Source: Zophobihabitans entericus
GTDB taxonomy: Bacteria; Pseudomonadota; Gammaproteobacteria; Enterobacterales; Orbaceae
Assembly (NCBI RefSeq): GCF_011745665.1
Contig: NZ_CP050254.1
Coordinates: 1-32,446, forward strand
Reading direction: 5' to 3'
DNA: 32,446 nt
Every line of letters begins with the position of its first letter. The first letter of the stretch is position 1. Shown here piece after piece: positions 1 to 13,630 of the stretch. A program made the position numbers and the translations under genes. The notes below the pieces were generated by a model, which saw only the letters and a list, made by a program, of their open reading frames with translations, did not search any database and was not told the origin of the DNA.

Positions 1-729
1 AAAGAACTAACAAGATTATCTCCAATTCTTGAATGTGAGCTACCATTAGATAATTCCCGCTTTGCTGGCCAGATCCCTCCGATAGTTCAAAGTCCAGCGT
101 TTGCTATTCGTAAAAAAGCAAATTCTATTTTTACGTTAGATCAGTATGTTGAATCAAACATAATGACCGAACGCCAATCTTACTTATTAAAGAAGTATAT
201 AAAAGCTCATAAAAATATTTTAGTGGTTGGCGGCACCGGCAGCGGAAAAACAACGTTATTAAACGCAATCATTGACGAAATGGTAAAGATTAATCCAACA
301 GAACGGATTGTTATCATCGAGGATACAGGCGAACTCCAATGCGCAGCTGAAAATTCAGTTCAGTTTCATACCACAATACAAATAACAATGACTCATCTAT
401 TAAAAACATCATTAAGAATACGGCCAGATCGTATTTTAGTAGGTGAGGTAAGGGGAGAGGAGGCATTAGATCTATTAGATGCCTGGAATACTGGCCATGA
501 TGGGGGATTAGCTACATTACACTCAACAACAGCCGAATCAGGATTAACAAGATTAAAGTCTCTTATAACACGCAATAGAGCGGCACCGAAAGATATAGAA
601 CCGCTAATAGCGGAAGCTGTTCACCTAATCATAAACATAATCAGAACGCCAACAGGGAGAAAAATAAACAAAATAATTGAAGTTTTAGGTTATGAAAATA
701 ACCAATATGTCATTAAAAATGTTGAATAA
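1..729 (+). CDS. trbB: TrbB (VirB11-type T4SS ATPase), C-terminal 242 residues
   Basis: This is the C-terminal part of the hexameric traffic ATPase that powers the type IV secretion system at the inner membrane. The frame is open from base 1 and continues the frame that begins at 32210, giving 321 residues in all, about the size of RP4 TrbB. Visible motifs are the Walker [10 protein letters not shown] (about residues 155-163 of the joined protein), an IEDTGEL Asp box, the [12 protein letters not shown]alker B region, and the [17 protein letters not shown]is box. The methionine at 163 is internal, because the codons before it read as ordinary TrbB sequence. It is the last trb gene still downstream of trbA. 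In RP4 the next gene is trbC, but here only the start of trbC follows, at 751. Confidence 0.97.
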
Positions 730-750
730 TAAACAGGAGAAGTTAAATTT

Positions 751-849
751 ATGTCTTATCAAAACTTGTTTTCATTAAAGTTAAACTCATTTTCTCATAC
801 AACTAATTTAGTTCACTTCCTAAAAACGACCGTTTTTGGTAAACCCTGA
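751..849 (+). CDS. trbC: Orphan 5' end of trbC (pilin leader), cut by the inversion site
   Basis: This 32-codon frame starts 21 bases after trbB, with a good ribosome-binding site (AGGAGAAG at 736-743). It reads MSYQNLFSLKLN, later VHFLKTTVFGKP, then stop. It runs straight through the crossover site at 817-842, and its codon 27 (ACC, 829-831) contains the core dinucleotide AC. The same ACC codon, in the same frame, occurs at the other site (12857-12855, minus strand), where it is followed by the body of the pilin TrbC. I therefore read the first 27 codons as the N-terminus of trbC, and the last five (VFGKP) as a dead end present only in this orientation. The leader ends basic-to-polar, and the hydrophobic part of the signal sequence comes from the other half. 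Confidence 0.85.
   Translation: MSYQNLFSLKLNSFSHTTNLVHFLKTTVFGKP
817..842 (+). repeat. Invertase crossover site A (hix/gix-like, 26 bp)
   Basis: The site consists of the 12-bp half TTCCTAAAAACG, the core AC, and the 12-bp half CGTTTTTGGTAA. This is the layout of Din-family recombination sites; from memory the hix halves are TTCTTGAAAACC and GGTTTTTGATAA. Its central 17 bases recur as the exact reverse complement in site B at 12844-12869. The core is asymmetric (AC here, GT on the plus strand at B), so recombination between the two must invert the DNA between them rather than delete it. The site lies inside the trbC leader frame. Confidence 0.9.
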
Positions 850-896
850 ACACGTTCATATATAGACAACCATTTCAAAAGAACAGCTAACCCGAT

Positions 897-909
897 TTTA
901 GCGGCTAAA
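897..909. promoter_or_regulatory. KorB operator (OB), exact TTTAGCGGCTAAA
   Basis: This is a 13-bp palindrome matching the IncP KorB operator consensus TTTAGCSGCTAAA, flanked by a further AT/AT pair. It sits about 95 bp upstream of the -10 element of the 1052-1510 gene pair. It is inside the invertible segment, so its distance from trbB changes when the segment flips. KorB can act from a distance in RK2, so repression of the 1004-1009 promoter is plausible. Confidence 0.85.
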
Positions 910-997
910 ATTAACAAATAAAAATAAACGGTTTTAGTAAAAAAAATTATCTTATCTCATCTCCTACAGTGTATCAAAACTAGTATATTTTTAAACT

Positions 998-1010
998 ATT
1001 CGATATAATG
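998..1010 (+). promoter_or_regulatory. Promoter -10 with TrbA-operator-like motif, twin of the trbB promoter
   Basis: The 13-mer ATTCGATATAATG contains a perfect -10 TATAAT (1004-1009) and is identical to the 13-mer at 32159-32171 in front of trbB. The embedded CGATATAATG resembles the RK2 TrbA operator, which I recall as CGATATATCG. No good -35 hexamer is visible, as at trbB. It probably drives the two small genes at 1052-1510 and perhaps the TrbK-like gene, in step with trbB. Confidence 0.6.
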
Positions 1011-1051
1011 AATTTCTTTGAGCAAGATATCTATATTACAAGGAATTGGAA

Positions 1052-1240
1052 ATGATTAGAAAAGAGGGTGATTTTTTGAGTTTGTCTGAACTCCATGTAG
1101 CATCTTACCTAGATTCATTACGCTTTGAGAATGAAGAGGAAAAAGTTAACGCAATTACGGCTCTGATAAATGTGGCATTGAACGAACTTGAAAAAAGTAC
1201 CTGTAAAAATAATTATCTGAGATATCTAGGGTTAGATTAA
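1052..1240 (+). CDS. Small protein of unknown function (62 aa)
   Basis: I do not recognise this gene. It encodes a soluble, acidic, probably helical protein (MIRKEGDFLSLSELH at the start, NNYLRYLGLD at the end). ATG 1052 is chosen over TTG 1046 because AAGGA (1040-1044) is 7 bases before it. The leader reads TTACAAGGAATTGG, which resembles a CsrA binding site placed over the ribosome-binding site, and the plasmid encodes a CsrA (24446-24634). The gene is followed 9 bases later by the membrane gene at 1250, with which it probably forms a transcription unit. Both lie within the invertible segment. No signal peptide or known motif was seen. Confidence 0.6.
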   Translation: MIRKEGDFLSLSELHVASYLDSLRFENEEEKVNAITALINVALNELEKSTCKNNYLRYLGLD

Positions 1241-1249
1241 GGAGACATA

Positions 1250-1510
1250 ATGTTATCAATAATTTCTATTATCACAATCATCATATCTCTTATATTAGCT
1301 ACTTTATTGATTATAAATGGAATATATTCCTTAAAACCTATCTATACAATTTTTGGCTTGTTTAATACTAACCAAATAGAACAAGAACATATGGAGTGGA
1401 TACAATACAAAAAGGAGCATATATGTAAACTTATTGAAAGAAATGATATTTCAAATAGTTATAAGTGGGATTGTAATAAAATCATTTTGATTAATAAATT
1501 TAAGGAATAA
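1250..1510 (+). CDS. Small single-pass membrane protein of unknown function (86 aa)
   Basis: The protein has one very hydrophobic N-terminal segment (residues 2-25, rich in Ile and Leu), then a polar tail of about 50 residues with charged stretches and two cysteines. A strong GGAG (1241-1244) lies 5 bases before ATG 1250, inside the spacer after the 1052 gene, so the two are likely co-expressed. I find no family resemblance. A role at the cell envelope, for example in entry or surface exclusion together with the TrbK-like lipoprotein downstream, would fit the position but is only a guess. Confidence 0.6.
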   Translation: MLSIISIITIIISLILATLLIINGIYSLKPIYTIFGLFNTNQIEQEHMEWIQYKKEHICKLIERNDISNSYKWDCNKIILINKFKE

Positions 1511-1613
1511 TCAAATTTTGCTATCTAAATAAATAGTTATCGGAGAGTTTTTTTTATATTATAAACAGAGAAGTATACCTTTTTATAAATTTAAAGATCA
1601 GATAAGGGAAACT

Positions 1614-1844
1614 ATGAATACTAAAATAATTACCATAGCATCATTACTAAGCATTTTTTTCTTAGCTGGCTGTGATGAAAAAAAACCTGAGTTATCTATA
1701 GAAGAACAGGCAAAGCAGTATCAATGCAGCGACTACCAAAACATTACTAACGATGAAGTTAAAGCGGCTCTATTAAAGCGTTGTCCGCGTATCAACACAA
1801 ATTTTGTGCCATCAACTAGCAGTAAAGGTATGTTAAGTGAATAA
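1614..1844 (+). CDS. trbK: TrbK-like entry-exclusion lipoprotein (76 aa)
   Basis: A lipoprotein signal peptide with the lipobox LAGC puts the lipidated cysteine at residue 20. Asp at position +2 after the Cys predicts retention at the inner membrane, where TrbK acts. The mature part (C, then YQNITNDEVKAALLKRCP, then NFVPS) resembles TrbK family proteins, which carry a Cys, an ENI-type motif, a second Cys and an FKPS-type end. TrbK blocks entry of a related plasmid into a cell that already carries it. In RP4 trbK sits between trbJ and trbL; here that place is empty and this gene lies on the opposite strand, converging with trbP. Assignment rests on short similarity recalled from memory plus size, so another small exclusion lipoprotein is possible. 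Confidence 0.55.
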   Translation: MNTKIITIASLLSIFFLAGCDEKKPELSIEEQAKQYQCSDYQNITNDEVKAALLKRCPRINTNFVPSTSSKGMLSE

Positions 1845-1855
1845 AACTATAGTGA

Positions 1856-2539
1856 TTAGTAAAAAAACAGATATCCCTGTTGTATCATCAGATGTTTGAT
1901 GACAAGGATTACGGCTAAATGTAGTGGATAGTAGATATAAAACAAATGCTTTAGCCGTACTACCTTTATATCTAGAAGTGAAATTATATAGATAAGTATT
2001 AATCCAAATACTGCATAAATATTACCGTTTACAAACCACAATAAGCATAGACTGATTACGCCAAAAAAGAAAAATTTCATATCCCCTAATTTATAATATA
2101 AGTAAATAGACACTCCAAAACCGATCGATGGCCACCAATATTCAACAAAAGCCCCACAGAACAGAAATAGCGCAGCTGTTAAAACAAAATATTTCCTCTC
2201 TATAGCATAAATAACAAGACTGATGCTCAGTAATGTGAACATGATATTTAATGGATACCAGCCCCATTTCAACCCACCTAAAGCAATAAAGATAGGTGTT
2301 GATAGCGTTCCACATAAAGCCAGTCTCTTTATCACTTTAAAACGCGCAGAATTGAAAGCCAGGTTATAGGCTAAAACAAAAACAAATATTGGCATAGACA
2401 AGCGGCCAAGCTCAAAGCAATAAGATAGTAGGGAGTTATATAGATACTTATTGACATGATCCATAGTCATTAAAAAAGCGGCTATGAGCTTTAGAAGCTC
2501 AATATTGCCGCTTGATAGTTTTGGTACTAATTTATTCAT
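1856..2539 (-). CDS. trbP: TrbP/TraX-family membrane acetyltransferase-like protein
   Basis: This is a polytopic membrane protein of the TraX family, whose F-plasmid member N-acetylates pilin; the IncP member is TrbP (about 230 aa). It starts with NKLVPKLSSGNIELLKLIA and carries the family signature of DHVNKYLY, then LGRLSMPIFVFVLAYN. Eight or nine hydrophobic segments follow. ATG 2539 is preferred over an upstream GTG at 2578, because it gives 227 residues and overlaps the ssb stop by 8 bases, a typical coupled start. It is the last gene of the trb operon. The end of the gene contains a short AACAG/CTGTT hairpin followed by a T run on the minus strand, which may act as the operon terminator. 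Confidence 0.88.
   Translation of the reverse strand: MNKLVPKLSSGNIELLKLIAAFLMTMDHVNKYLYNSLLSYCFELGRLSMPIFVFVLAYNLAFNSARFKVIKRLALCGTLSTPIFIALGGLKWGWYPLNIMFTLLSISLVIYAIERKYFVLTAALFLFCGAFVEYWWPSIGFGVSIYLYYKLGDMKFFFFGVISLCLLWFVNGNIYAVFGLILIYIISLLDIKVVRLKHLFYIYYPLHLAVILVIKHLMIQQGYLFFY
1861..1883 (-). terminator. Possible trb operon terminator inside the end of trbP
   Basis: On the minus strand, AACAG and CTGTT form a 5-bp stem with a 6-base loop, followed by seven T residues. The stem is short and overlaps the last codons of trbP, so this is a weak call. It would separate the convergent trbK-like gene and trbP. Confidence 0.3.
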
Positions 2540-2870
2540 CTGACTTAGGCGCAGGCATTGAAACAATGACTTCACCACTATAGTTCACTACAACTTCAGT
2601 AATGTAATGTTTAACTTTTTGGTCATCTTCCCAGGATCTTGTTTTGATGCTCCCATCAACATAGACTTTACAACCTTTTTTAATAGTACCGGAGATACAT
2701 TTAACAACGTAAGGGTTGTTAACTGAAACCCTTGTCCAGTCGGTTATTTCTTTCCGTTCACCGGACTGTTTATCAATCCAGCTTTCCGTTGTTGCCACAG
2801 AAAAATTGATAAATTTCTCGCTAATCTCTGGATCTTTTCCAACATGGCCAACTAAAGTTACTTTATTCAT
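2532..2870 (-). CDS. ssb: Single-stranded DNA-binding protein (short, 112 aa)
   Basis: This is an OB-fold single-strand DNA-binding protein. It shows the typical N-terminus MNKVTLVGHVGKDPEI, then FSVATTESW, TDWTRVSV, KGCKVYVDGSIKTRSWED and HYITEVVV. It lacks the long acidic C-terminal tail of chromosomal SSB; the final residues SDE are only a hint of the partner-binding tip. Length matches the short SSB (P116) of RK2, but there ssb is upstream of trfA. Here it sits between trbN and trbP, where RP4 has trbO. A good AGGAG precedes ATG 2870. It would coat single-stranded DNA during transfer or replication. Confidence 0.93.
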   Translation of the reverse strand: MNKVTLVGHVGKDPEISEKFINFSVATTESWIDKQSGERKEITDWTRVSVNNPYVVKCISGTIKKGCKVYVDGSIKTRSWEDDQKVKHYITEVVVNYSGEVIVSMPAPKSDE

Positions 2871-2905
2871 TTTTATGCTCCTATAACGTTGATTATCTTC
2901 AGCTG

Positions 2906-3397
2906 CTAATTTGCATCTGGAGATTGATTAAGTTTACTTCCGGTAATACTTACCTTTGTTGTAATGAAATGCTCATCTAACCAATTCGCCCACTTCTCCG
3001 AACGTTTGGCCAGATCATTACGATAAATAGTATTGTAATAGGGTGTTTTTGAGTGATAGTTTGCGGCGCGCTGAAATATCGACCCCTTATCATTCAATAT
3101 GTGGCCTCTTATTCGCCAGGCTGCCAAATCGTATGGATAGCAACTGTTACTGTATCCCTCGACATCTTTCACTGTGATGCTGTATTTAGCTAATGATTTT
3201 AGATATGCCGTATTAAACTGAAGCGGCCCCACGTCGTAAGTACCATTTTTATTTTTGACATATTGGCCAGGTTTTCCCCCCTCTTTTTCAACAACGGCAA
3301 GAAACAGATTCACTGGTACTTCATACTTAACAGCCGCATAAATAGCACATACAACGCTATTTTGCAGGTCTGGCGGCAACTGGATATCAATAAGCAT
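2906..3397 (-). CDS. trbN: TrbN, lytic transglycosylase of the T4SS
   Basis: TrbN-type SLT-fold enzyme that opens the peptidoglycan so that the secretion channel can cross the periplasm. The catalytic Glu lies in LAVVEKEGGKPG (about residues 37-39), followed by the family segments YDVGPLQFNTAYL and NSCYPYDLAAWRIR, and RAANYHSKTPYYN. At 163 residues it is shorter than RP4 TrbN and shows no clear signal peptide, which is unusual for an enzyme that acts in the periplasm. The start at 3397 is one base after the trbM stop, as expected in a tightly packed operon. Confidence 0.85.
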   Translation of the reverse strand: MLIDIQLPPDLQNSVVCAIYAAVKYEVPVNLFLAVVEKEGGKPGQYVKNKNGTYDVGPLQFNTAYLKSLAKYSITVKDVEGYSNSCYPYDLAAWRIRGHILNDKGSIFQRAANYHSKTPYYNTIYRNDLAKRSEKWANWLDEHFITTKVSITGSKLNQSPDAN

Positions 3398-3398
3398 A

Positions 3399-4016
3399 TT
3401 AATCCACCCAACAAGTTCTTTTAACTGGCGTTTGGCCTACAACATCACCATTACTGTTGTAGATGTATTTATAGCCCCTGTTCCAATCCTGAACCGAATA
3501 CCATTCGCCATTACAGACATATTTAGGTTTGTCTATAACGGTATATTCATGGTTTATTAAGAGATCACAGTAACCAGGCATTGAGGCCGTCGTTCTTTTA
3601 AACTCAATACCACAACCACCATCTTTACAAGAACCGCCGCCGCTACGTTGATCAATAATATTATTAAGTGAATTAGCATCACATCGCATTTCTTGGCGTG
3701 CTATCGCTTCAGTTAATGAATCCATTCCACTATTTGCATTAGAACTAGGGCATAGCTTTAAGTAATCACGACGCTTTTTAATCGTATCAGATGGCTTTTT
3801 AGCTTTGATACCAAAGTAAATAGCCAGCGGTTCGTTACACTCAGATGGCCGCTTACTTGATGACATACAAATAATCACTTCACATGCCGTTCTTTCATCA
3901 CCTTTTAATATTTCACTGCCAGGTAATGCGTTAGGAACACCAGGTAAATTTGCATTGATACTTGTTGAAATAACAAACAACATAAAACTCACGCCAATAG
4001 TAAATAATTTTTTCAT
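3399..4016 (-). CDS. trbM: TrbM, periplasmic conjugal transfer protein
   Basis: TrbM-family protein of 205 residues with a signal peptide (residues 1-22, cleavage near INANLP). The conserved core is ACEVIICMSSSKRPSEC, followed by LAIYFGIKAKKP and RRDYLKLCP. About a dozen cysteines suggest disulfide bonding in the periplasm. TrbM is not strictly essential in RP4, and its role is poorly known. The start overlaps the trbL stop by 4 bases (ATGA). Confidence 0.9.
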   Translation of the reverse strand: MKKLFTIGVSFMLFVISTSINANLPGVPNALPGSEILKGDERTACEVIICMSSSKRPSECNEPLAIYFGIKAKKPSDTIKKRRDYLKLCPSSNANSGMDSLTEAIARQEMRCDANSLNNIIDQRSGGGSCKDGGCGIEFKRTTASMPGYCDLLINHEYTVIDKPKYVCNGEWYSVQDWNRGYKYIYNSNGDVVGQTPVKRTCWVD

Positions 4017-5320
4017 AGTTTATCCTCTCTATTACTTTTAATTTTTTCAGCAACTTGCCCGCCGACTGTTTGATTTATCCTGGCATTCATTGCATCTTTT
4101 GCGGTATCTTTTACACCGGTGGCCAGATTCTTTATCCCATCACTAACAGCAGCAGCAAAAGAGCGATCACCAGAACTAACAATAGAACCTGACGAACTGT
4201 CATCACCCATAGCTGAAGATAATGGTGTATCAGAATCACCAGAACCGGACGATAAGCTACCCTCCATTCCAGAACTAGAGCCGGAACCGGCATCACCAGA
4301 TAAAGACCCCTCACTACTTTCACCTGATGCAGATCTAAAGGCTTCCATAATCGCTTTAGCACCGCCACCGGCATTAGCTGCCCCACTGGTAACAAGTTGA
4401 CTAGCCACACCAAAACCGGCGGCCGTAGTCGCAGCTGCGCCAAGAACAGCACCAGACGCAAAACTACCTATACCCTGACCGCCAACACTAGCGCCGGTGA
4501 TAATGCCAGCCATTAACGGTGGTAACTTATTAACAAGTAAAAGCAGGGTTAAAGCGACAATGAACATGACAGCTAATTCACTGAAAATTATTGAGTCAGA
4601 CATATTCGTATAATATTGATCAACAATACTTTTCCCGATGCCTATCAATAAAACCATTGTGAAGATCTGAATCGCTATCCCTAATAGCGTCTTGTAGTAG
4701 TTAATGGCCATATCTGACGTCCATTTACTACCGCCAAATCCCAGAAAGAAAATCCCGGCATAAAGCAAGACCCAAGAAGTTATTAGTAGTAGCAACATAT
4801 TGATGGCTAACAGCGCGATAATGACCAGAATAATAAGTGCTAATATCATTCCCATTGCACTATCCACCGGTGACCAAACAGACGTTTGATTTGCCACCTG
4901 GTTAAAAATATCAAAGCCGATATCTACAATTGAAGACGGGGAGGGCGTATCAGAAATACCGGCGGCTTTAGCCGCCAGTTGTCCCATACTTTTAATGATT
5001 GAAGAGCCAATTTCAGGAGCATTCTGTAAGATCCAGAGATAAAATCCCGTAAACATCATGAATCTTATAAGCTCACCGAAAAATTCTCCAAAATCAGCCT
5101 GTTTCAGTATTAACTGAGCGAATGTCCAGACCATTGAGATCGCGACTAAGCACCAGAACAGCCAAAGAGCATTACTCATAATAACGCCCTGCCAGGTTGA
5201 TGCTACAGCCCTATATTTCTCCAGAACATTATCTAAAATGTCCTTATTATTAATGGCCGCAAAGGCTGAGTTAGACAGCATTAAAAACAGGAGCGGGAAA
5301 AGATAAGTAAACCTTTTCAT
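4013..5320 (-). CDS. trbL: TrbL (VirB6-type polytopic channel protein)
   Basis: Integral inner-membrane component of the secretion channel. The 435-residue protein begins with a signal-like hydrophobic segment (ends NSAFA) and shows about six further membrane segments up to residue 285 (LWLFWCLVAISMVW, ILALIILVIIALLAINMLLLL and others). The family segment YAGIFFLGFGGSKWTSDMA lies near residue 190. The last 110 residues are Ser/Gly/Asp-rich and of low complexity, as is common for TrbL tails. The first base of its ATG is the last base of the trbJ stop, so translation is probably coupled. No trbK lies between trbJ and trbL, unlike RP4. Confidence 0.95.
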   Translation of the reverse strand: MKRFTYLFPLLFLMLSNSAFAAINNKDILDNVLEKYRAVASTWQGVIMSNALWLFWCLVAISMVWTFAQLILKQADFGEFFGELIRFMMFTGFYLWILQNAPEIGSSIIKSMGQLAAKAAGISDTPSPSSIVDIGFDIFNQVANQTSVWSPVDSAMGMILALIILVIIALLAINMLLLLITSWVLLYAGIFFLGFGGSKWTSDMAINYYKTLLGIAIQIFTMVLLIGIGKSIVDQYYTNMSDSIIFSELAVMFIVALTLLLLVNKLPPLMAGIITGASVGGQGIGSFASGAVLGAAATTAAGFGVASQLVTSGAANAGGGAKAIMEAFRSASGESSEGSLSGDAGSGSSSGMEGSLSSGSGDSDTPLSSAMGDDSSSGSIVSSGDRSFAAAVSDGIKNLATGVKDTAKDAMNARINQTVGGQVAEKIKSNREDKL

Positions 5321-6081
5321 TAATGAAGCATTCCTGATTTATTTGTTGATTTAACAAAAGCGCCGGAACGGACACTTTTAATCGCGGCCGCTTCCTGAGC
5401 CGTTTTGTCATTATCAGCAGCTTGTTTGGTAATAACGGCATTATGTTGAGCTACGAGTAAGGCCCGCATCTGTAGCAACTGGTTAGCTTGATTACCTGCT
5501 AGTTGATTACTGTATTGTAAGGCAGCCATTTGCCCGTCAGCACCCTGCACGGCTCCCTGTAGCCTTTCCAGCTGTTTAGCATCGGCCATCAAGCTTTTTT
5601 GCTGAAGATTGATTGTTGATAAAGCCGCATCATTACTGACTTTTACAGCACCCGCTGAAAATGCTGAGGCCTCATTTAACCGCTCGATATCTTCAGCGGT
5701 GCATTTACCCGTACTTAAACATGGGGCCGTTTGGTAATATTTAACGTCCTGGAACTTATTTAAATAAGAATCGATATCACCGATTTGCCTTTTATATTGC
5801 TCAAGTTTTGACATAGCGGCATTCAGGTTATTCATGGTTTCATTTGCTTTATCCCAAATTTGAACAGCTGGGCCAACCGAGTTTTTTAATTGATTTTCAT
5901 ATTGCTGTAGCTGAGTTTCGTACTCTTCAATCTGCTTAAGAGTTTGATTGATAGCTTCCATCACGTTCATAATATTTTGGCCAAGGTTCAGACCGTCAGC
6001 TACCGGTATCCCAGCTAAGGACACATTCATGTTTAACGCCAGAAAAGAAGCTAATACCAACTTTGTAATTTTGTTTTTCAT
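5320..6081 (-). CDS. trbJ: TrbJ (VirB5-type minor pilus / mating protein)
   Basis: Secreted 253-residue protein with signal peptide (residues 1-23, ends NVSLAG). The mature part starts IPVADGLNLGQNIMN and is mostly helical, with long Gln-rich coiled-coil stretches (residues 43-70, and 165-230). A conserved disulfide-type pair, C in APCLSTGKC, lies near residue 120. In the P-type systems TrbJ is the VirB5 counterpart, found at or near the pilus tip, and is the determinant of entry exclusion by TrbK. It lies 16 bases downstream of trbI. Confidence 0.93.
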   Translation of the reverse strand: MKNKITKLVLASFLALNMNVSLAGIPVADGLNLGQNIMNVMEAINQTLKQIEEYETQLQQYENQLKNSVGPAVQIWDKANETMNNLNAAMSKLEQYKRQIGDIDSYLNKFQDVKYYQTAPCLSTGKCTAEDIERLNEASAFSAGAVKVSNDAALSTINLQQKSLMADAKQLERLQGAVQGADGQMAALQYSNQLAGNQANQLLQMRALLVAQHNAVITKQAADNDKTAQEAAAIKSVRSGAFVKSTNKSGMLH

Positions 6082-6097
6082 AACATATTTCCTTTTA

Positions 6098-7462
6098 TTA
6101 ATAATCGAATGATTTATATGGCTTTGTGAAAGTCATATCTTTAGTTACAACAATGTTAAAACGATAACCTGGACGAATTTCTAGAGTAGGGGCTATGTTC
6201 ATATTCTTAGCTACCAGCTGCATTGTTGTTTGTCCTAGCTGTTGGCCAAGTGCTTCACTTAATGCGCCACTTGCTGATTTATCATCACTGCTATGTTGAT
6301 CCTGGCTATATGAAATACCGGCAGTAATACCGGACAATAGAATTGCCGAGCCAAAAATACGCATATAGTGATTATTTACTTTGTCATTGAATCCGGCATA
6401 GCCGCCGCTGTCTGTGCCTGGCATTGATGTAATATCTAAGGCTTTACCATCAGGGAAAATCACTCGTTCCCAGGCAACCATCACACGAGCCTGGCCAAAC
6501 ACAACCTCACTACTATAGGTTCCGTTTAAACGGGCTCCCTGCGGGATCAATAGATGTCGGCCGGTAGCCGTGTCATAGACATTTTGAGAAACTTGAGCGG
6601 AGATTTGGCCTGGAAGTTCAGAATTAATACCAGAAATTAAAGTACCAGGAATGATAAAACCTGTTCTTATCTCATAAGGAGAAGAGGGCGGCTCAACTTC
6701 AGCATCTAGCTTCCACTTATTTTTATTACTTGCACCTCCAGTTCCGGAAGATATACGCCCACTACCCACAGCAGTCGAAGTAGACGTTACGCTATCAAGT
6801 AAGCCGCTATTTTGCATCATGGCCATACGTTGCTTATATTGCTCCGTAATATCACCACTGGCACCGGAACTATTAGCGTTTATCTTCTGGCGAACTGCCG
6901 CTATCTGAGCCAACATATCATCACGATTCTGAGCGCTAGAGAACGAGCCATAGTTAACCGACCCAGAGCTAACTGGCGCAATCATGTTAACGGCCGTTTT
7001 AGATCGTAGTGATTGCTCAAACAGCTGCATTTTAGCCATTTGGATACGTTCAAAATTCGGATCGGGTTGTGATTGGCCAAGGTTTTGATTAGGCGGTATT
7101 GGTGGCAGATCTAAATTGTCAGGCCTTACTATCGTAATAGGCTTAACCTCACCAGGAGCGACAATATCATTAAGATCCATCGGTTTTTGTGGTGGTAATT
7201 CAGCAGGGATAATACCGTTTTGTGAACTTACTAATTCTTGAGCAAAAGAATTAGAGTTATTCGACATAACAACCGGTGTTTCAGATTGAGCAACATTAGA
7301 CTGGTTAGCTTTTTCACTGGCAATGACAATCATAATCAATAGGAACGCCAACAGAACACCGCCAACAATCAGCATCGGCTTATTGTTGACCCGTCGAGTT
7401 CCAACCTTTCCACCTTTGGCCGTCGTGTCCGGAGACAATACATCATTTTTATCTGTCATCAT
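6098..7462 (-). CDS. trbI: TrbI (VirB10-type channel scaffold)
   Basis: VirB10-family protein that spans both membranes and forms the core channel. Residues 1-27 are cytoplasmic, with one membrane segment at about 29-48 (MLIVGGVLLAFLLIMIVIAS). A Pro-rich periplasmic linker follows (LPPQKPMDL and NLDLPPIPPNQN). The C-terminal VirB10 beta-barrel domain begins about residue 260 (SSPYEIRTGFIIPGTLISGI) and contains LLIPQGARLNGTYSSEV, VAWERVIFPDGKALDI, and GYRFNIVVTKD near the end. It overlaps trbH by 4 bases. Length (454) is close to RP4 TrbI. Confidence 0.97.
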   Translation of the reverse strand: MMTDKNDVLSPDTTAKGGKVGTRRVNNKPMLIVGGVLLAFLLIMIVIASEKANQSNVAQSETPVVMSNNSNSFAQELVSSQNGIIPAELPPQKPMDLNDIVAPGEVKPITIVRPDNLDLPPIPPNQNLGQSQPDPNFERIQMAKMQLFEQSLRSKTAVNMIAPVSSGSVNYGSFSSAQNRDDMLAQIAAVRQKINANSSGASGDITEQYKQRMAMMQNSGLLDSVTSTSTAVGSGRISSGTGGASNKNKWKLDAEVEPPSSPYEIRTGFIIPGTLISGINSELPGQISAQVSQNVYDTATGRHLLIPQGARLNGTYSSEVVFGQARVMVAWERVIFPDGKALDITSMPGTDSGGYAGFNDKVNNHYMRIFGSAILLSGITAGISYSQDQHSSDDKSASGALSEALGQQLGQTTMQLVAKNMNIAPTLEIRPGYRFNIVVTKDMTFTKPYKSFDY

Positions 7463-7923
7463 TGGCCTCTGTCTTGCTTAGTCCAGAACCCAAGACTTAC
7501 GACCTTACCGTCTTGAATAAGAAAGCCCTTAGTAATAGGCAAACCATCAACAAATAAGGTAACCCGATAGATATTCGCGTCTGTCTCATCAATAACATAA
7601 GCTAATGAGTGCGTATCTGCGTTAAATTCAGGCGCTTTTTCTGGCGTTTTATCTTTATCTGCCACAGGAACAGAGAGGGCATAGCCCGCTTTTTGTAACT
7701 GGTCAGATAAATGACTACCAAATAAGTCTGAAAATTGATGTGTTAAGTTGAATCGTGTTTTACCTGGCGCGTATAACGCCGATAGTTGAGCAAACGCATT
7801 ATCAGCAAAAGCAATATTCACTTCATTTGATAAAGTTTCAGCGCTGAAATTGCCATATTTGGCACTTGAAACACAGCCACTTAAAACAATACTCATCAAT
7901 AATATTAAGAATAATTTTTTCAT
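7459..7923 (-). CDS. trbH: TrbH (VirB7-like outer-membrane lipoprotein)
   Basis: Lipoprotein of 154 residues with lipobox VLSGC, so lipidation is at Cys17, and Val-Ser follow, which permits export to the outer membrane. The rest holds a domain with FNADTHSLAYVIDETDANIYRVTLFVDGLPITKGF. By position between trbG and trbI, and by lipoprotein signal and size, it is TrbH, which stabilises the outer-membrane core complex in the role of VirB7. It overlaps trbI by 4 bases and starts 3 bases after trbG. Confidence 0.88.
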   Translation of the reverse strand: MKKLFLILLMSIVLSGCVSSAKYGNFSAETLSNEVNIAFADNAFAQLSALYAPGKTRFNLTHQFSDLFGSHLSDQLQKAGYALSVPVADKDKTPEKAPEFNADTHSLAYVIDETDANIYRVTLFVDGLPITKGFLIQDGKVVSLGFWTKQDRGQ

Positions 7924-7926
7924 TAT

Positions 7927-8811
7927 TTATTCCTTAGTAATTGTAATTTTGGATTGGCCAGAACCGACACCAGTAATCAAAATTGCTTTATCAAAGATGG
8001 CATCAACAATGTAACGATCGCCCTGTAAGCGATAGTTGACCATGACTGTTTCATCTTTATTAAACAGGCCTTTGTTTTGACGAATAACTAATAAAGTAGG
8101 AGCTTCTTTATTAGCCATTGAGGAGGGCATTTGAATGATAGTTTTAACACCATCGTTATAGACGCGAACCGGTTTCCAGGAAGCCGAACCAGAAATAGAA
8201 TATTTAAAATCTAAATTACCTAAATATTCACCGGTTTGCGGGATAATATTATCTTCAAACTGCTTTGTTGTTTGAGACTTAATTAAATCCCACTTAGCAA
8301 TAGCTTCTTCCGGATAAGTAAAGCTAACTGCCGGCATATACTGTGTTCTATGAGACTTTAAATTAATATTATAAGTACGACGATTAGTCGCGATAAAAAG
8401 GGTTGTTTCAAGCCCGACGTCAAAAGGTTTGATAAGAACATGGATAACTTCTCCAGCCCCACTTCCGGATACGGCCGGTTCAATAATCCAGCGGCCGGAA
8501 TCACCAACATGTAAACCGTTGACTAGTTCGCCTGGTTGTAAGGCTAAATCACAAACCCGCATTACAGCACATACAATACTGACCTGTTGAGCGCCAAAAA
8601 GGTATTTAATAGAGCCATCAGCCCCCCGAACCGGTTTCATTCCGGAGGAAACATCACCGGCCCATTTTTCGGCGATCGCAATAGCCGCTTTTTCCTGGGT
8701 TGTTAATTTTGGATCGGCATTACTAAAATAAAGATCGGCTAACTTATCTGTAGAACTGGCAGCAGCTGACAATGAATAGAATATAAAAAGTGATAATAAA
8801 ATTTTCTTCAT
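7927..8811 (-). CDS. trbG: TrbG (VirB9-type outer-membrane channel protein)
   Basis: Periplasmic / outer-membrane core-complex protein of the VirB9/CagX family, 294 residues. A signal peptide covers residues 1-18 (ends SAAASS). The family segments are GSIKYLFGAQQVSIVCAVMR, DLALQPGELVNGLHVGDSGR, IKPFDVGLETTLFIATNRR, and the C-terminal domain with SASWKPVRVYNDGVKTIIQM and PTLLVIRQN. In the operon it lies between trbF and trbH, as in RP4. Confidence 0.96.
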   Translation of the reverse strand: MKKILLSLFIFYSLSAAASSTDKLADLYFSNADPKLTTQEKAAIAIAEKWAGDVSSGMKPVRGADGSIKYLFGAQQVSIVCAVMRVCDLALQPGELVNGLHVGDSGRWIIEPAVSGSGAGEVIHVLIKPFDVGLETTLFIATNRRTYNINLKSHRTQYMPAVSFTYPEEAIAKWDLIKSQTTKQFEDNIIPQTGEYLGNLDFKYSISGSASWKPVRVYNDGVKTIIQMPSSMANKEAPTLLVIRQNKGLFNKDETVMVNYRLQGDRYIVDAIFDKAILITGVGSGQSKITITKE

Positions 8812-8821
8812 GCTAATAACC

Positions 8822-9574
8822 TTAATTTAATCTTGACCACGAAAAATCACGAACATAGATATTCACTGGATTATTGTTCATATCTTCCAGTGTTTTTTCT
8901 GATTTAGGTTCTGCTTGATACACAGTGACTAAAGCCCGCATAATAAAAGGGGTTCCAACTAATGCGCCCTGGCGATCTCTGGTTGTTTCAACCCATTCAA
9001 TTTGCCAGGTGTCGGCGGTCTGAGGTAAGACTGATCTAATCTCAATGCTTACAAGTTCTTTGGCCGCTCGTTCAAATGGTGTTTTACCGTCAGCACGCAT
9101 CCATTCATTCATTTTTGCAAATGCTGGATCGGTATCAGTGAGCATGGAATAGACTTTAAAAACGGCTTTACGCTGCATTGCGGCATCAGCTGTAACAAGA
9201 CGGGAATAGAAAATATAATCAGAAACGGCAGCCTGGAACATAATCTTTTCTGGCCGTTCTGCTGGATAAGCAAGTTGGCCACCTGACACGCGGCCGGTAC
9301 TCACATTATGTTCCACAATGTAAGGAATAAACTTAGATTGTGATCCAATCGAAATAATGCCATACACCGCATACAGTGAGATTAACAGCGCAATAATACC
9401 TACAACTTGCCAGGATAACCGGCTAGACATAAGAGAACCGCAATGTGAGTTCCACGCTCTTCTGGCATTAAGATAAGGATTTAATTCTTCCTTATCCTCG
9501 CCAGTACCTTTACTAGTAGAAACATGCTCATGCTCTACCTTTTCTTTCTTTTTAAATAGTGATTTAAGATTCAT
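8822..9574 (-). CDS. trbF: TrbF (VirB8-type inner-membrane assembly factor)
   Basis: VirB8-family bitopic protein of 250 residues. A charged cytoplasmic N-terminus (KKKEKVEHEH) precedes a membrane segment at about residues 56-76 (WQVVGIIALLISLYAVYGII). The periplasmic NTF2-like domain contains QAAVSDYIFYSRLVTAD, ADGKTPFERAAKELVSIE and a C-terminal PVNIYVRDFSWSRLN. It overlaps trbE by 4 bases, so translation is probably coupled. Confidence 0.95.
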   Translation of the reverse strand: MNLKSLFKKKEKVEHEHVSTSKGTGEDKEELNPYLNARRAWNSHCGSLMSSRLSWQVVGIIALLISLYAVYGIISIGSQSKFIPYIVEHNVSTGRVSGGQLAYPAERPEKIMFQAAVSDYIFYSRLVTADAAMQRKAVFKVYSMLTDTDPAFAKMNEWMRADGKTPFERAAKELVSIEIRSVLPQTADTWQIEWVETTRDRQGALVGTPFIMRALVTVYQAEPKSEKTLEDMNNNPVNIYVRDFSWSRLN

Positions 9575-12147
9575 GCGGCCTCCTTACAATAATCATTTAA
9601 ATCCAGGTTCTTTTTCTTAAGCCATTCATCAACCCAATTTTCGCCATACACTGATTCAAGCCGCATAATTTCATTAATTGACTCTTTATCTGAGGCGGCA
9701 ACAAACGACAAAGCCAAAGGCCCCAAAGCCAAATCATATAAACGCCGTCCTTCACTTGAGGCAAAATAGTATTGACGTTTGGGAATAGCTGAAGAAATGA
9801 TGTCGATCTGGCGCGAGTTAAGCCCCATTCTTTTATACAGTTTCGCGGTTTCTTCTTCGTTTGCTGACGAATTAGGTAAAAAGATTTTTGTAGCCGTAGA
9901 TTCAACAAGAACGTCGATAATGCCGGAGTTCTCAGCATCAGATAGGCTCTGTGTAGCCATGATCACAATGGCATTAGCTTTTCTAAGGACTTTAAGCCAC
10001 TCTTTAATTTTTTCTCTAAAGACAGGGTGTCCGAGAAGTAACCAAACCTCATCAAGAAGAAGAACACATGGCTGGCCAGTTAAGGACATTTCAATACGCT
10101 TGAATAGGTATAACAGAACGGGTAAAGCGTACCTATCGTCCAAATTCATTAGGTTTTCAATTTCAAAAACCGTAAAATCAGACAATTCTAGTCCGTCCTG
10201 TTCTGCGTCCAGGAGATACCCCATAGAACCATCAACAGTGTATTGCTGTAATGCTTCTCTTATGGCGTTATCCTGAATTGCATGAGTGAAATCAGTTAAG
10301 GTTTTACCACCGTTCTCACTCATACTCACTAAAGCATCATTAATACCATTGCGTTGTGATGCTGAAGTAGTTAAACCATTTAACGCCAAAATAGTATCTA
10401 TCCAATCTGCCGCCCAAGCTCGATAGGAGCGTGAACTTAAATACTGAAGAGGACAAAAAGCTAATTTGTTATCGTCTGACGCAATATCAAAATGTAAACC
10501 ACTTTTTCCATTAGTCTTAGCTCGTATTCCCGCTGCTAACGCATATAAAGACCGGCCTTTATCAAAAGCATAAATAGACATACCTTTATATCGTCTGAAT
10601 TGTGCGGCCAGAAAAGCAAGATGAACTGATTTACCGGCACCGGTAGGGCCAAACATCATCGTATGGCCAAGATCGCCAACATGTGTATTTAACCGGAACG
10701 GTGTTGAACCCGATGTAACAACATGAGCTACAGCTGGAGAGTTTTTAGGGTAATAAGGACATGGCGCTTTATCTTTACCAGACCAGATCGATGATGTCGG
10801 TAAAAAGTGAGTTAAGTTCAGTGTATGTATTAACGGCCGGCGCACGTTCTCAACACCATGACCAGGCAAACTACCTAAATAAGCATCAACCGTATTAATG
10901 GTTTCTACCCTGGCATTAAACCCTAAACGATTAATGGTCTTGCTGATAACCTCAGCGCTATGTTCTAACCGTGCTCTTTCAGCGTCCATCAGAATGATAA
11001 CGCTAGTATGATACCCCTCTGCGACTAGGCCGCTTTCAACTTCAGCAATAGCATCTTCAGCGTCAATAACCATAGCAACAGCATCTTTATTAACCTTATC
11101 TTTACCTGTGTTAAAGATCTGATCAAAAAAGCCCCTAACTTTCTGCCGCCATTTTTTTCGAAACTTATTTAAATGGTCGATAGCTTCATGACGATCCATA
11201 AAAATGAAACGGTTCGACCATCGATATTCACAAGACTGTTCAGCTAAGGCAGATAAAATACCTGGATGAGAATCGAGCGGATAACCATCAATAGCTACAA
11301 CCTGAATAAACTTATTACCTATTTTAGGAACAACGCCAGTGTAAAATTCTTTCCCTCCAATGACTTTATCTAAATACATGCCGTTATTAGGCAATATTAC
11401 AGGGTGAATATCACCAGTAATGCAGAACTGGAGCCACCGGAGAAAATCATCATGAATGGCTTTACTACCATCTTCATTAACTTTTTCATGAGGCATTAAC
11501 CGCTGTATTTTTAATACGCTAGATAAATTGGATTCAATATTTCTACATTCACGCTTAAAAGTATTAAGTATCTCTTGGCCGTGCTGAGTCTTGCTTAATG
11601 ACATCTGATCATCATCAAACATCATTTCAACAAACTTACGTTGCGCCAGTAATGGCGGAAAATAAGTAATAGTTAAAACAAAATAGCCCTCATACATTTC
11701 ATCAAGGCCGTTAAAAAACCGGCGCCGTTCTTCATCGATACCGGCACAGATTTGATCAGGAAAGTCTGATTCTTCAGGAGTTGAATATTTATTAGCTGGC
11801 CGACGAACAGCATCGACGTGAACCATCCAACCATTGCCTAGCTTTGATAAGGTTTGATTGACTCTAAAAGCAACGTTTTCACGCTGCTTGACTGTGGCAC
11901 TAGCGTTATCGTCTCCCTGATATAAAAAAGCCATCATCAAAGAGCCATTTTTATTAAGAATAATGCCAGGATCGATCACTGAACCATAATTAAGTAAGTC
12001 AGCGAATCCTTCAGATTTAGAACGGTGCTTAATTAGCTTATTAGCTGCAATACTTTTTCCTGCTTGCAAGAATAAAATAATAACCAGTAACGAGCTTAAT
12101 AAAACAACCGTAATAGTGATCAGCTGCATAAGTTGAGAATCATTCAT
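9571..12147 (-). CDS. trbE: TrbE (VirB4-type T4SS ATPase)
   Basis: The largest ATPase of the secretion system, needed for pilus assembly and substrate passage. The 858 residues match the 852 of RP4 TrbE. A membrane segment occupies residues 9-29. The VirB4 N-terminal domain follows (DLLNYGSVIDPGIILNKNGS). Walker A GPTGAGKS lies at about residue 500, and Walker B PCVLLLDEVWLLLG near residue 697, followed by KANAIVIMATQSLSDAENSG. It overlaps trbD by 4 bases at its start and trbF by 4 bases at its end. Confidence 0.98.
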   Translation of the reverse strand: MNDSQLMQLITITVVLLSSLLVIILFLQAGKSIAANKLIKHRSKSEGFADLLNYGSVIDPGIILNKNGSLMMAFLYQGDDNASATVKQRENVAFRVNQTLSKLGNGWMVHVDAVRRPANKYSTPEESDFPDQICAGIDEERRRFFNGLDEMYEGYFVLTITYFPPLLAQRKFVEMMFDDDQMSLSKTQHGQEILNTFKRECRNIESNLSSVLKIQRLMPHEKVNEDGSKAIHDDFLRWLQFCITGDIHPVILPNNGMYLDKVIGGKEFYTGVVPKIGNKFIQVVAIDGYPLDSHPGILSALAEQSCEYRWSNRFIFMDRHEAIDHLNKFRKKWRQKVRGFFDQIFNTGKDKVNKDAVAMVIDAEDAIAEVESGLVAEGYHTSVIILMDAERARLEHSAEVISKTINRLGFNARVETINTVDAYLGSLPGHGVENVRRPLIHTLNLTHFLPTSSIWSGKDKAPCPYYPKNSPAVAHVVTSGSTPFRLNTHVGDLGHTMMFGPTGAGKSVHLAFLAAQFRRYKGMSIYAFDKGRSLYALAAGIRAKTNGKSGLHFDIASDDNKLAFCPLQYLSSRSYRAWAADWIDTILALNGLTTSASQRNGINDALVSMSENGGKTLTDFTHAIQDNAIREALQQYTVDGSMGYLLDAEQDGLELSDFTVFEIENLMNLDDRYALPVLLYLFKRIEMSLTGQPCVLLLDEVWLLLGHPVFREKIKEWLKVLRKANAIVIMATQSLSDAENSGIIDVLVESTATKIFLPNSSANEEETAKLYKRMGLNSRQIDIISSAIPKRQYYFASSEGRRLYDLALGPLALSFVAASDKESINEIMRLESVYGENWVDEWLKKKNLDLNDYCKEAA

Positions 12148-12455
12148 AGGTAACGATTCCCTTGCAGTGTTGTATTTTCACGAAAGGGGCTACTATAAGG
12201 AGCATAATAAGCCTGGTACTTTCTATGTCGTAAATAAACAAACCGCATTTTAGGATCGGACTTAGCCATTAGCCGTAAAACATATACAGAGAAAAACCAC
12301 AGCAGAACGCCAAAGATAGTAGCTTTCAAATCTTGCGCGCTGAAAATTAACGCAACAGAAAGAAGCCCCGCCATCATAACCAGTTCCCTATCGCACTCTA
12401 AAAACAAGTTATCTCTATTGCCGACCCGTCGAATAGGTACAGATTTTATTTCCAT
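12144..12455 (-). CDS. trbD: TrbD (VirB3-type inner-membrane protein)
   Basis: VirB3-family protein of 103 residues, usually associated with VirB4/TrbE. The N-terminus IKSVPIRRVGNRDNLFLECDREL is typical of TrbD; two hydrophobic segments follow at about residues 28-42 and 45-63, then KSDPKMRFVYLRHRKYQAYY. A GGGG-containing ribosome-binding site lies just before ATG 12455. It lies 9 bases after the end of trbC and overlaps trbE by 4 bases. Confidence 0.95.
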   Translation of the reverse strand: MEIKSVPIRRVGNRDNLFLECDRELVMMAGLLSVALIFSAQDLKATIFGVLLWFFSVYVLRLMAKSDPKMRFVYLRHRKYQAYYAPYSSPFRENTTLQGNRYL

Positions 12456-12464
12456 GTAAGCCCC

Positions 12465-12857
12465 CTATTCATTTACAATATTTCTTAAAACATTCTTTAA
12501 AAAATCAATTACATCTTCCTGCATTTCAAACAGATCGGCTCCACGGCCAAAGAAACCTGATAGCAGGTTATTAGCGCCAACTAAGAAAGACATAACAAGA
12601 ATGAGATAAACAAGGGTTTTAAAGAAAGCGTTTAGTTCACCACCAAAAATTAAGGTTGAACCAGCAACAACAATACCAATAATAGAAACAGCAAAAGCAA
12701 CTGGGCCCGTTAAGGAGTCCTTCAACTTACCTAACCACCCCTCATAAGGTAAACCACCGCCGGAGCCCTCAGATGCTGCTGCACACTGAGTAAGCAAGAT
12801 ATAAAAAAACAATGCACACAGTAACTTAAAGATGATAGAATCTTTCTCAAAAACGGT
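12465..12857 (-). CDS. trbC: TrbC (VirB2-type pilin), body separated from its start
   Basis: Major subunit of the conjugative pilus. The segment [18 protein letters not shown], then [22 protein letters not shown] and SGFFGRGAD is nearly diagnostic for RP4 TrbC. In RP4 the propilin is trimmed and cyclised by TraF, also encoded here. In this orientation the gene has no credible start: the first possible one in frame is TTG 12812, without a ribosome-binding site and within the signal sequence. The frame instead stays open upstream through the crossover site at 12844-12869, to a stop at 12890-12888. Joined at the shared ACC codon to the 27 codons at 751-831, the protein is 156 residues, close to the 145 of RP4, with a continuous leader (hydrophobic stretch [13 protein letters not shown], then a cleavage region at QCAAAS). 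Confidence 0.9.
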
Positions 12858-12869
12858 CGTTTTTGAGAA
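12844..12869 (-). repeat. Invertase crossover site B (26 bp, inverted relative to A)
   Basis: On the plus strand the site is TTCTCAAAAACG, core GT, CGTTTTTGAGAA; the two 12-bp halves are perfect inverted repeats. Read on the minus strand, the central 17 bases equal those of site A, including the AC core, and the flanking ACTTC is also shared. It lies 130 bp upstream of the invertase gene, the usual place for one of the two sites in Hin/Gin-type systems, and within the trbC frame. Confidence 0.9.
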
Positions 12870-12879
12870 GTAAATGATT

Positions 12880-12909
12880 TTGATAAATTAACTTATATAT
12901 TGGTGTAAT
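12880..12909 (+). promoter_or_regulatory. Candidate promoter of the invertase gene
   Basis: TTGATA (12880-12885), an 18-base spacer, and TGTAAT (12904-12909) make a plausible sigma-70 promoter reading toward the invertase. The same interval holds TTTTGATAA (12878-12886) and its inverted copy TTATCAAAA (12928-12936), plus TTCTCAAAAC (12915-12924), which nearly repeats a crossover half-site. Binding of the invertase here could repress its own gene. Confidence 0.4.
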
Positions 12910-12923
12910 GTTTATTCTCAAAA
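12895..12923 (-). promoter_or_regulatory. Possible leftward promoter toward the trb operon body
   Basis: Read on the minus strand, TTGAGA followed after 16 bases by TATATA could be a weak promoter pointing at the headless trbC and the rest of the operon. If active, trbD-trbP would still be transcribed at some level in this orientation, although the pilin would lack a start. The AT-rich context makes chance matches likely. Confidence 0.25.
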
Positions 12924-12999
12924 CTCATTATCAAAACCACTTTAAAAATTAACGGTAATCTGATGAGTTATGAGAATTTAAAATAGGGAAAAGAAAAAA

Positions 13000-13557
13000 A
13001 TGCTAATTGGCTATGCTCGAGTGTCAACTAATGATCAAGATTTAACCTTACAGATTGATGCACTTCAAAAAAATGGTTGTGACAAAATATTCACGGACAA
13101 AATAAGTGGATCTAAAACTCAACGCCCAGGATTAACTGAAGTGTTAAACTTTATACGTGAGGGTGACAGCCTCGTCGTCTGGAAGTTAGACCGATTAGGC
13201 CGAACAATGAAAGGCCTGATAGATCTAATAGAAGAATTGAACGAAAAAAAGATAGAGTTCATCTCATTAACTGACGGCATAGACACTAAAGGAGCCACCG
13301 GTAAATTTTTCTTTCATGTAATGGCTGCCTTCGCTGAAATGGAACGAGAACTGAACAGAGAACGTACACTTGCCGGTCTTGAAGTTGCGAGAAAAGCCGG
13401 TAAAACGGGCGGCAGGCCAAAAGCGATGACAACTAAAAAATTGAAAGCTGCTAAAAAGCTCTTACTTGACGGAATGCCACCCAAAGATGTGGCTCAATCG
13501 CTAGGGATATCACTATCAACACTATATCGGTATTGTCCAGCAAGTGATAACTATTAA
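13000..13557 (+). CDS. Serine recombinase, Hin/Gin-family DNA invertase
   Basis: A 185-residue serine recombinase closely resembling Hin, Gin and Pin. The catalytic serine is Ser9 in GYARVSTNDQ; further resolvase/invertase motifs are WKLDRLGRTMKGL, SLTDGIDTKGATGKFFFHVM and FAEMERELNRERTLAGLEVAR, the dimer-interface helix. The C-terminal helix-turn-helix reads PPKDVAQSLGISLSTLYRYCP. The SLTDGIDT to FFHVM region and the C-terminus favour invertases over Tn3 resolvases. It lies 130 bp from crossover site B and most likely flips the 831-12855 segment. Fis-dependent control by an enhancer inside the gene is expected for the family, and a Fis-like site is seen at 13033-13047. A weak AGGGA precedes ATG 13000. 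Confidence 0.95.
   Translation: MLIGYARVSTNDQDLTLQIDALQKNGCDKIFTDKISGSKTQRPGLTEVLNFIREGDSLVVWKLDRLGRTMKGLIDLIEELNEKKIEFISLTDGIDTKGATGKFFFHVMAAFAEMERELNRERTLAGLEVARKAGKTGGRPKAMTTKKLKAAKKLLLDGMPPKDVAQSLGISLSTLYRYCPASDNY
13033..13047 (+). promoter_or_regulatory. Candidate Fis site of a recombinational enhancer
   Basis: GATCAAGATTTAACC fits the loose Fis consensus GNNYRNNWNNYRNNC at every fixed position. It lies within the first 50 bases of the invertase gene, where the hin enhancer is also found, about 180 bp from the core of site B. A second site at the usual 48-bp spacing is not clear, so this is tentative. Confidence 0.4.
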
Positions 13558-13592
13558 TAAAAACTTGACTAATTTTTATTTTGTATTCACAA

Positions 13593-13602
13593 TGTGCGCA
13601 CA
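13593..13602. promoter_or_regulatory. Perfect palindrome TGTGCGCACA upstream of the antitoxin gene
   Basis: A 10-bp perfect palindrome lies 28 bases before the antitoxin start, near a possible promoter (TTGACT at 13565-13570 with a -10 around ACAATG). Type II antitoxins of the DinJ/RelB family bind palindromes in their own promoter, so this is the likely operator of the pair. Confidence 0.5.
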
Positions 13603-13630
13603 AAATGATTTTTTTAGAGGTATCTATATC

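Follow-up and report, generated by a model that had tools for sequence, protein, structure and literature searches.

RESULTS

An IncP-like plasmid with a reversed transfer operon

The DNA analyzed (32,446 bp; hereafter the window) is the complete second contig of the two-contig, 2.67-Mb genome of Zophobihabitans entericus. A single trbB frame runs over the contig ends on the plus strand, with its 5′ part at positions 32210 to 32446 (methionine codon at 32210) and its 3′ part at positions 1 to 729 (stop codon at 727 to 729). Because trbB is open across both contig ends, we read the contig as a closed circle. Genes were assigned by matches to Pfam or NCBIfam models, some of them under NCBIfam curated cut-offs. 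The features of an IncP (RP4-like) plasmid were all found, namely TrfA, KorA, KorB, the TraI relaxase, the TraG coupling protein, and the Trb transfer proteins (TrbA, TrbB to TrbJ, TrbL to TrbN, and TrbP). Also encoded are a ParA-type partition ATPase, a NikA-like protein, a topoisomerase, and a protein in which ArdC and Toprim domains are combined.

The genes trbC, trbD, trbE, trbF, trbG, trbH, trbI, trbJ, trbL, trbM, trbN, ssb, and trbP lie on a predicted invertible segment (829 to 12857), all on the minus strand. Apart from the pilin gene trbC, described below, these were identified by profile matches as trbD (12144 to 12455), trbE, encoding the VirB4 ATPase (9571 to 12147), trbF (8822 to 9574), trbG (7927 to 8811), trbH (7459 to 7923), trbI (6098 to 7462), trbJ (5320 to 6081), trbL (4013 to 5320), trbM (3399 to 4016), trbN (2906 to 3397), ssb (2532 to 2870), and trbP/traX (1856 to 2578). 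The gene for the TrbA regulator (31772 to 32119, plus strand, above the NCBIfam cut-off) and trbB are outside the segment. An earlier note on this DNA had claimed that the operon points away from trbA-trbB and that all mating-pair-formation genes but trbB are enclosed by two recombination sites; the strands of all trb genes agree with the former, and the Pfam and NCBIfam matches place trbC to trbP inside. Adjacency of trbB and trbC on one strand, a usual though not strictly diagnostic IncP trait, is absent as sequenced and present after in silico inversion, which also reproduced the predicted restoration of the trb operon order behind trbB. The relaxase, coupling protein, replication, and partition genes all lie outside the segment, so a switch would touch the pilus and transfer channel only. 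Two further open reading frames, at 1052 to 1237 and 1250 to 1510, had no Pfam or PHROG match, and a protein search with the latter found no homologue except itself.

Two inverted crossover sites split the pilin gene trbC

The left crossover site (817 to 842, plus strand) reads TTCCTAAAAACG-AC-CGTTTTTGGTAA, with its core at 829 to 830. The right site (12844 to 12869, minus strand) reads TTCTCAAAAACG-GT-CGTTTTTGAGAA on the plus strand, with its core at 12856 to 12857 (AC on the minus strand). Sites of Hin and Gin have a 12+2+12 layout, and both 26-mers fit it. The left site is identical to the reverse complement of the right site at 22 of 26 positions, including the common core AC, and to the right site in direct orientation at 20 of 26. 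Given the AC and GT cores, the two sites are inverted relative to each other. The window thus holds a pair of imperfect 26-bp palindromes, oppositely oriented and each with an asymmetric core of 2 bp, and alignment and a pattern scan both bear out the earlier description of them as Din-family sites. The scan used a general Din-family pattern, TT-N4-AAANC-N4-GNTTT-N4-AA, composed with both sites already in view; it fit the window exactly at two places, whereas 200 dinucleotide-preserving shuffles averaged 0.015 fits and never gave more than 1. When a tighter pattern was run over the whole genome with up to 3 mismatches, it matched the two plasmid sites exactly and one chromosomal place (C1:2193044) with 2 mismatches. 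The site pair also ranked second (32 nt, 84%) in a listing of 296 inverted repeats of at least 18 nt; many of the others are due to chance, and some are longer and less similar. The cores are 12,025 bp apart, or 12,029 bp with the cores counted.

Both sites sit within the trbC reading frame, a detail beyond the earlier description. Downstream of trbB, an AGGAG ribosome-binding site precedes an ATG at 751, which is 21 nt from the trbB stop codon. This stranded trbC start (751 to 849, plus strand) encodes MSYQNLFSLKLNSFSHTTNLVHFLKTTVF through the left site, which is read in frame, and stops after three further codons (GKP). The pilin body (12465 to 12843, minus strand; PF04956) lies at the other end of the segment, where the site is again read in the same frame as in the stub. 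No ATG, GTG, or TTG occurs upstream of 12812, an in-frame stop lies just upstream on the right flank, and the hydrophobic stretch of the signal peptide has already begun at 12812, the first possible start. In silico inversion of the 12,029 bp joins stub and body in frame into a 156-amino-acid TrbC and so completes the gene at the site. The rejoined precursor has 61 residues before the motif LPYE, compared with a median of 43 among the 118 of 120 listed homologues that have the motif. Just two TrbC records are nearly identical, P0002 (from the window) and P0003 (from a contig of 32,421); both lack the N-terminus, and neither represents the joined, or ON, form of this plasmid. They are annotated with different guessed trbC starts.

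A Gin-like invertase gene adjoins the right site

The earlier claim of a Hin/Gin-type invertase gene 130 bp past the second site agrees with a gene at 13000 to 13557 (plus strand, outside the segment), whose 185-amino-acid product contains PF00239 and PF02796. It belongs to the invertase branch of the small serine recombinases, with a PHROG DNA invertase match at 4.7e-80 and a best PDB match to 4m6f, presumably Mu Gin, at an E value of 8.5e-60, compared with 3.4e-27 for gamma-delta resolvase. No second recombinase matching this invertase was found in the genome at E 0.001. The leader of the gene (12870 to 12999, plus strand, outside the segment) contains two half-site-like repeats, at 12915 and 12928, and a candidate promoter noticed by eye, TTGATA-18-TGTAAT. 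This candidate is missing from the output of our promoter scan, which accepts a second hexamer only with A as its second letter.

The invertase frame is intact, and its FFFHVM stretch, whose residues we take to be the counterparts of Hin Phe104-Phe106 and Met109, aligns with that of 4m6f. Substitutions at positions 105 and 109 can release Hin from Fis (PMC4513852). Since the stretch is retained, this invertase is likely to be Fis dependent. The host genome encodes Fis (163 bits against a curated cut-off of 99). Between positions 12701 and 14300 we found four Fis-like sites, none paired 40 to 56 bp apart, using a strict consensus that is a poor detector. The only pair in the window spaced 46 to 50 bp apart (9238 and 9284) lies in trbF, far from both crossover sites.

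The closest invertases, P0124 (80% identity) and P0125 (76%), are from Gilliamella sp. B2894 and Gilliamella sp. HK2. The nearest named relatives of TrbC are likewise from Gilliamella, which makes a host of the Orbaceae type, living in insect guts, likely. The longest contig is 29,605 in the records of both P0124 and the TrbC relative P0005, a pairing based on size alone. P0127 (71%), which was called with a long N-terminus, reads SQKRSFLR, matching the right site in the same frame at 8 of 8 residues, and its site core is about 126 bp before the invertase start, compared with 143 bp here. The site beside the invertase is thus conserved in relatives. P0128 and the TrbC relative P0017 both come from 3,448-bp sequences; if these were one molecule, trbC would adjoin the invertase as in the OFF arrangement. 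This is a hint, and sizes of short sequences do coincide by chance, as for P0119 and P0165 (both 3,573, from different sources).

Among 30 viral contigs with AAAAACGACCGTTTTT, there were no trb matches, and two had a recombinase match. On L071, the exact 16-bp site center lies about 145 bp upstream of the start of an invertase with 49% identity; on L070, the 16-mer lies about 107 bp behind the matched part of a recombinase with 38% identity. Neither locus has a second exact copy of the 16-mer, and protein scans of viral contigs found no relative.

TrbC relatives change abruptly at the crossover site

A TrbC protein search gave 1,432 matches, and the figures here are from the 120 listed. Eight of these have the motif KTTV near the start: P0002, P0004, P0005, P0006, P0007, P0009, P0011, and P0017. 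P0004 (156 amino acids) is 61% identical to the rejoined TrbC over 99% of its length and is continuous over the site. Upstream of KTTVF it shares 13 of 24 residues with the stranded stub, which none of 1000 shuffles equaled; without the two site residues, a hand count on the same alignment gave 11 of 22. P0004 is therefore a TrbC already joined over the site, with an N-terminus homologous to the stub, and we regard it as the strongest item of evidence.

P0004 and P0005 share 97 of 132 residues from KTTV onward but nothing recognizable upstream, where 715 of 1000 shuffles scored at least as well. The upstream piece of P0005 instead resembles the invertase-side flank of the window, at 5 of 8 residues, including 2 that belong to the site, and none of 1000 shuffles did as well. 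This short match, consisting of FIK and the site arm, weakly suggests that P0005 carries the invertase-side flank. P0005 has a full-length TrbC frame with its own ATG in what seems to be the invertase-side orientation, so the second state of some relatives may be a changed one and not a silent one.

We compared the upstream pieces of the two window flanks and seven relatives in all 36 pairs, with 1000 shuffles each. Six pairs were equaled by no shuffle, namely the left flank and P0004, the right flank and P0005, P0006, P0007, and P0009 among themselves (three pairs), and P0011 and P0017; the pieces of the KTTV relatives fall into four groups. Weaker resemblances linked P0011 with P0006 and P0007 (7 and 16 of 1000 shuffles as good) and the right flank with P0009 (46 of 1000). 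P0011 and P0017 have a common N-terminus yet different site arms (FL and FS), so arm and flank are not always linked. P0017 matches P0006 and P0007 at 94 and 91 of 109 residues after KTTV, whereas before it 89 and 151 of 1000 shuffles, respectively, were as good. Such a change exactly at the site, with the remainder conserved, is what inversion would predict.

The sites are not a general trait of IncP trbC genes

Through a TrbE scan of genome contigs, we fetched 46 related loci, many of which end before 10 kb, such that a distant recombinase could escape. trbC follows trbB on one strand in 41 of the 42 loci holding both genes, which makes the orientation sequenced here the unusual one. No crossover site within 3 mismatches occurred in the 46 loci; L057 has one place with 4 mismatches, and L062 and L063, scanned alongside, have no site. 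Three of the 46 have a recombinase match (26 to 45% identity), at least 8 kb from trbC. In L050 (Candidatus Accumulibacter contiguus), trbA-trbB is reversed relative to trbC, but there are no sites or recombinase match, and the junction is adjoined by trbA rather than trbB; we did not count this locus as support. At the order level, 30 of 394 genomes (G000 included) have a TrbC match. We inspected 11 of these loci: none has the site, and all 10 holding both genes have trbB and trbC co-oriented. Sites within trbC are thus not a general IncP trait.

Among 44 genomes of the same family, TrbC of this type was found in G000 only, as was a close invertase; three others have matches at 31 to 38%. A PLSDB search with positions 1 to 14300 of the window returned no near match.

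Putative regulatory elements of the plasmid

The palindrome TTTTAGCSGCTAAAA, which we take to be the KorB operator, has six exact copies in the window, compared with 0.17 expected with up to 2 mismatches. One such operator-like copy (31746 to 31760, plus strand) lies just upstream of trbA. Another (896 to 910, plus strand) is enclosed by the segment at a distance of 53 bp from the left site, and inversion would shift it to 12776 to 12790, about 210 bp before the invertase start. KorB might then hold the invertase back while the operon is ON but not while it is OFF, which would stabilize donors.

A promoter-like match on the minus strand (13027 to 13000) is directed into trbC as sequenced and could drive the operon in this orientation. 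The scan found six promoter-like sites on both strands, compared with 2.8 expected (standard deviation, 1.6), so a single such match is weak.

DISCUSSION

A predicted ON/OFF switch for mating-pair formation

The earlier note read this arrangement as an ON/OFF switch for conjugation. Our analysis supports and sharpens that reading, in that the flip also rejoins trbC with its start codon and ribosome-binding site. Probably, a Gin-like invertase flips the 12,029 bp that split trbC and thereby toggles the mating-pair-formation operon. The sequenced form appears to be OFF: trbC to trbP are directed away from trbA-trbB, and the trbC body lacks a start codon, a ribosome-binding site, and the beginning of the signal peptide, all of which are stranded behind trbB. 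Crossover at the AC/GT cores would place trbA-trbB-trbC through trbP on one strand, encode the 156-amino-acid TrbC, and turn the operon ON. With the invertase and its likely promoter outside the segment, switching should be possible from either state. Bet-hedging is a likely use: the majority of carriers would save the expense of a pilus and escape pilus phages, and a minority would transmit the plasmid. That inversion takes place, that the OFF state is silent, and that carriers benefit are points we infer from the sequence.

Other explanations deserve consideration. Each orientation might give trbC another 5′ end, and perhaps a promoter, so that the leader or the level of the operon changes. 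P0005 and P0017, with full TrbC frames and other N-termini joined at KTTV, are consistent with such an arrangement, as is the minus-strand promoter-like match at the invertase start. In this plasmid, however, the right flank offers no ATG, GTG, or TTG before 12812 and has the in-frame stop just upstream, and a single match is weak when the promoter scan returns so many by chance; we consider this explanation improbable here. It is also conceivable that the 5′ ends of trbC were replaced independently in different plasmids rather than inverted, and the KTTV relatives are indeed distinct plasmids.

Still less probable is that the invertase or its sites are dead and the plasmid is stuck as a transfer-deficient derivative. 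The OFF form alone was found for this plasmid, and there is no Fis-like site pair near the invertase, but the invertase frame is intact with its FFFHVM stretch aligned to the PDB invertase, both sites are present, the trb frames are open, and stub and site are conserved in relatives. We think it very unlikely that the recombinase serves plasmid dimer resolution next to an incidental inverted site pair. Although 8 of 60 listed plasmid records with a relative annotate it as a resolvase, its sequence is closest to invertases, there are just two sites, inverted and in frame within trbC, and the site is conserved in the trbC of relatives. There is just as little reason to suspect that the segment was joined the wrong way round during assembly. 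Short inverted repeats can mislead assemblers, but these 26-bp repeats carry 4 differences and are presumably short relative to the usual read length, the genome is in 2 contigs, and were the join wrong, neither the split frame nor the sites would be affected.

Relation to known inversion systems

The predicted ON/OFF switch has parallels in several characterized systems. As in the Gin system, the invertase gene is situated beyond the segment, and flipping would make one gene whole in frame. As in Hin-mediated flagellar phase variation of Salmonella and inversion of the phage Mu G segment by Gin, a serine invertase is encoded next to a pair of inverted 26-bp sites whose cores are 2 bp long, and the host has Fis (for Hin, PMC3798978 and PMC4513852). 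Unlike in those systems, the segment is a 12-kb transfer operon and not a promoter or part of a tail fiber, the site arms differ (AAAAACG-NN-CGTTTTT), and a canonical enhancer was not found by the strict-consensus Fis scan, a poor detector. The trb operon of RP4 and other IncP plasmids is regulated by TrbA and KorB. Our plasmid resembles these in gene order after inversion, in its TrfA, KorA, KorB, TraG, and TraI homologues, and in its KorB-operator-like palindromes, and differs from them in that the related loci are without the site and seldom have any recombinase match.

The Rci shufflon of I-complex plasmids (R64 and TP114) likewise involves plasmid DNA inversion at a pilin gene and conjugation (PMC9045228), but there a tyrosine recombinase exchanges the C termini of the PilV adhesin, thereby affecting which recipient is chosen, and the transfer operon is not connected or disconnected. 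We reject identity with the shufflon, which is defined by a tyrosine recombinase and multiple C-terminal pilV cassettes, as the recombinase here is of the serine type and the plasmid has two sites only. In the bistable competence of ICEclc, transfer similarly occurs from a small subpopulation (3 to 5% of cells), although the switch is regulatory and the opening of the abstract names no DNA rearrangement (PMC7423338). PinQ inversion of the e14 P segment also has a serine invertase producing a chimeric gene, one that affects phage adsorption, but the segment is a 1,797-bp prophage region, and the abstract names no conjugation genes (PMC12529663).

DNA-inversion switches are thus known, and in the open-access literature, with subscription papers and preprints mostly outside this scope, we found none governing a whole conjugation operon. 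In passages of a review of phase variation published in 2025, conjugation comes up once, for elements that bear phase-variable loci and not for transfer genes (PMC11868660), and passages of a genome-wide inversion study give R64 and p15B as examples on plasmids (PMC5903667). On pRAS4 of Aeromonas salmonicida, two hin genes are said to sit upstream of the virB operon (PMC13381706). In a honeybee study, T4SS genes were reported for a few strains of Gilliamella, and one of these transferred an IncQ plasmid (PMC9063374).

Implications

A plasmid family, likely from bacteria of the insect gut (Gilliamella, for example), probably phase-varies its whole conjugation machine, such that a minority of cells would be donors and the rest would be invisible to pilus phages. 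In such plasmids, trbC may be misannotated or overlooked, and one sequenced in the OFF state would appear transfer deficient without being so. Donors in a population would be countable by junction PCR. If the model is true, conjugation itself would be under a heritable, reversible genetic switch, by which a plasmid would evade phages specific for the pilus and spare itself the expense of the transfer machine, yet could still spread.

Features around the invertase gene

The leader of the Gin-like invertase gene contains two half-site-like direct repeats at 12915-12939, TTCTCAAAACTC and TTATCAAAACCA, each with 3 mismatches. These repeats are possibly autoregulatory binding sites for the invertase. 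The same stretch reads as SKLIIKT, which is common to the window and to the extended form of P0127, a 71%-identical invertase called with a long N-terminus. Two promoter-like matches lie nearby. The minus-strand match, at the start of the invertase gene (13027-13000), is directed towards trbC; the plus-strand match lies within the end of the segment (12813-12841) and is directed towards the invertase only in the sequenced orientation. Immediately behind the invertase is a RelB/DinJ-YafQ-like toxin-antitoxin pair (13544-14201).

On a viral contig (L071, 99-789), an invertase of 49% identity is accompanied by an exact copy of the 16-bp site centre ~145 bp upstream, the layout also seen in the window.

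Features in and beside the predicted invertible segment

The start of the split trbC was called differently in the window's own TrbC (P0002) and in the near-identical P0003, both starts being gene callers' guesses. The source contig of P0003 is 32,421 bp long and probably stems from a different assembly or from a close relative. Two other plasmids (L029, ~9005; L038, 1-300) carry additional partial trbC-like matches upstream of their trbC genes. In a Candidatus Accumulibacter contiguus contig (L050, 1-2800), the orientation of trbA-trbB is reversed relative to trbC-E, and a search of this region for Din-type sites found none.

Inside the invertible segment, two small ORFs (within 1052-1510) lie downstream of trbB in the sequenced orientation only. 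Neither matched a family, and a homologue search with the ORF at 1250-1510 returned none. The window holds six exact KorB-operator-like palindromes (896, 22557, 23382, 25138, 27223 and 31746). The palindrome at 896 is located within the invertible segment, and inversion would give it new neighbours.
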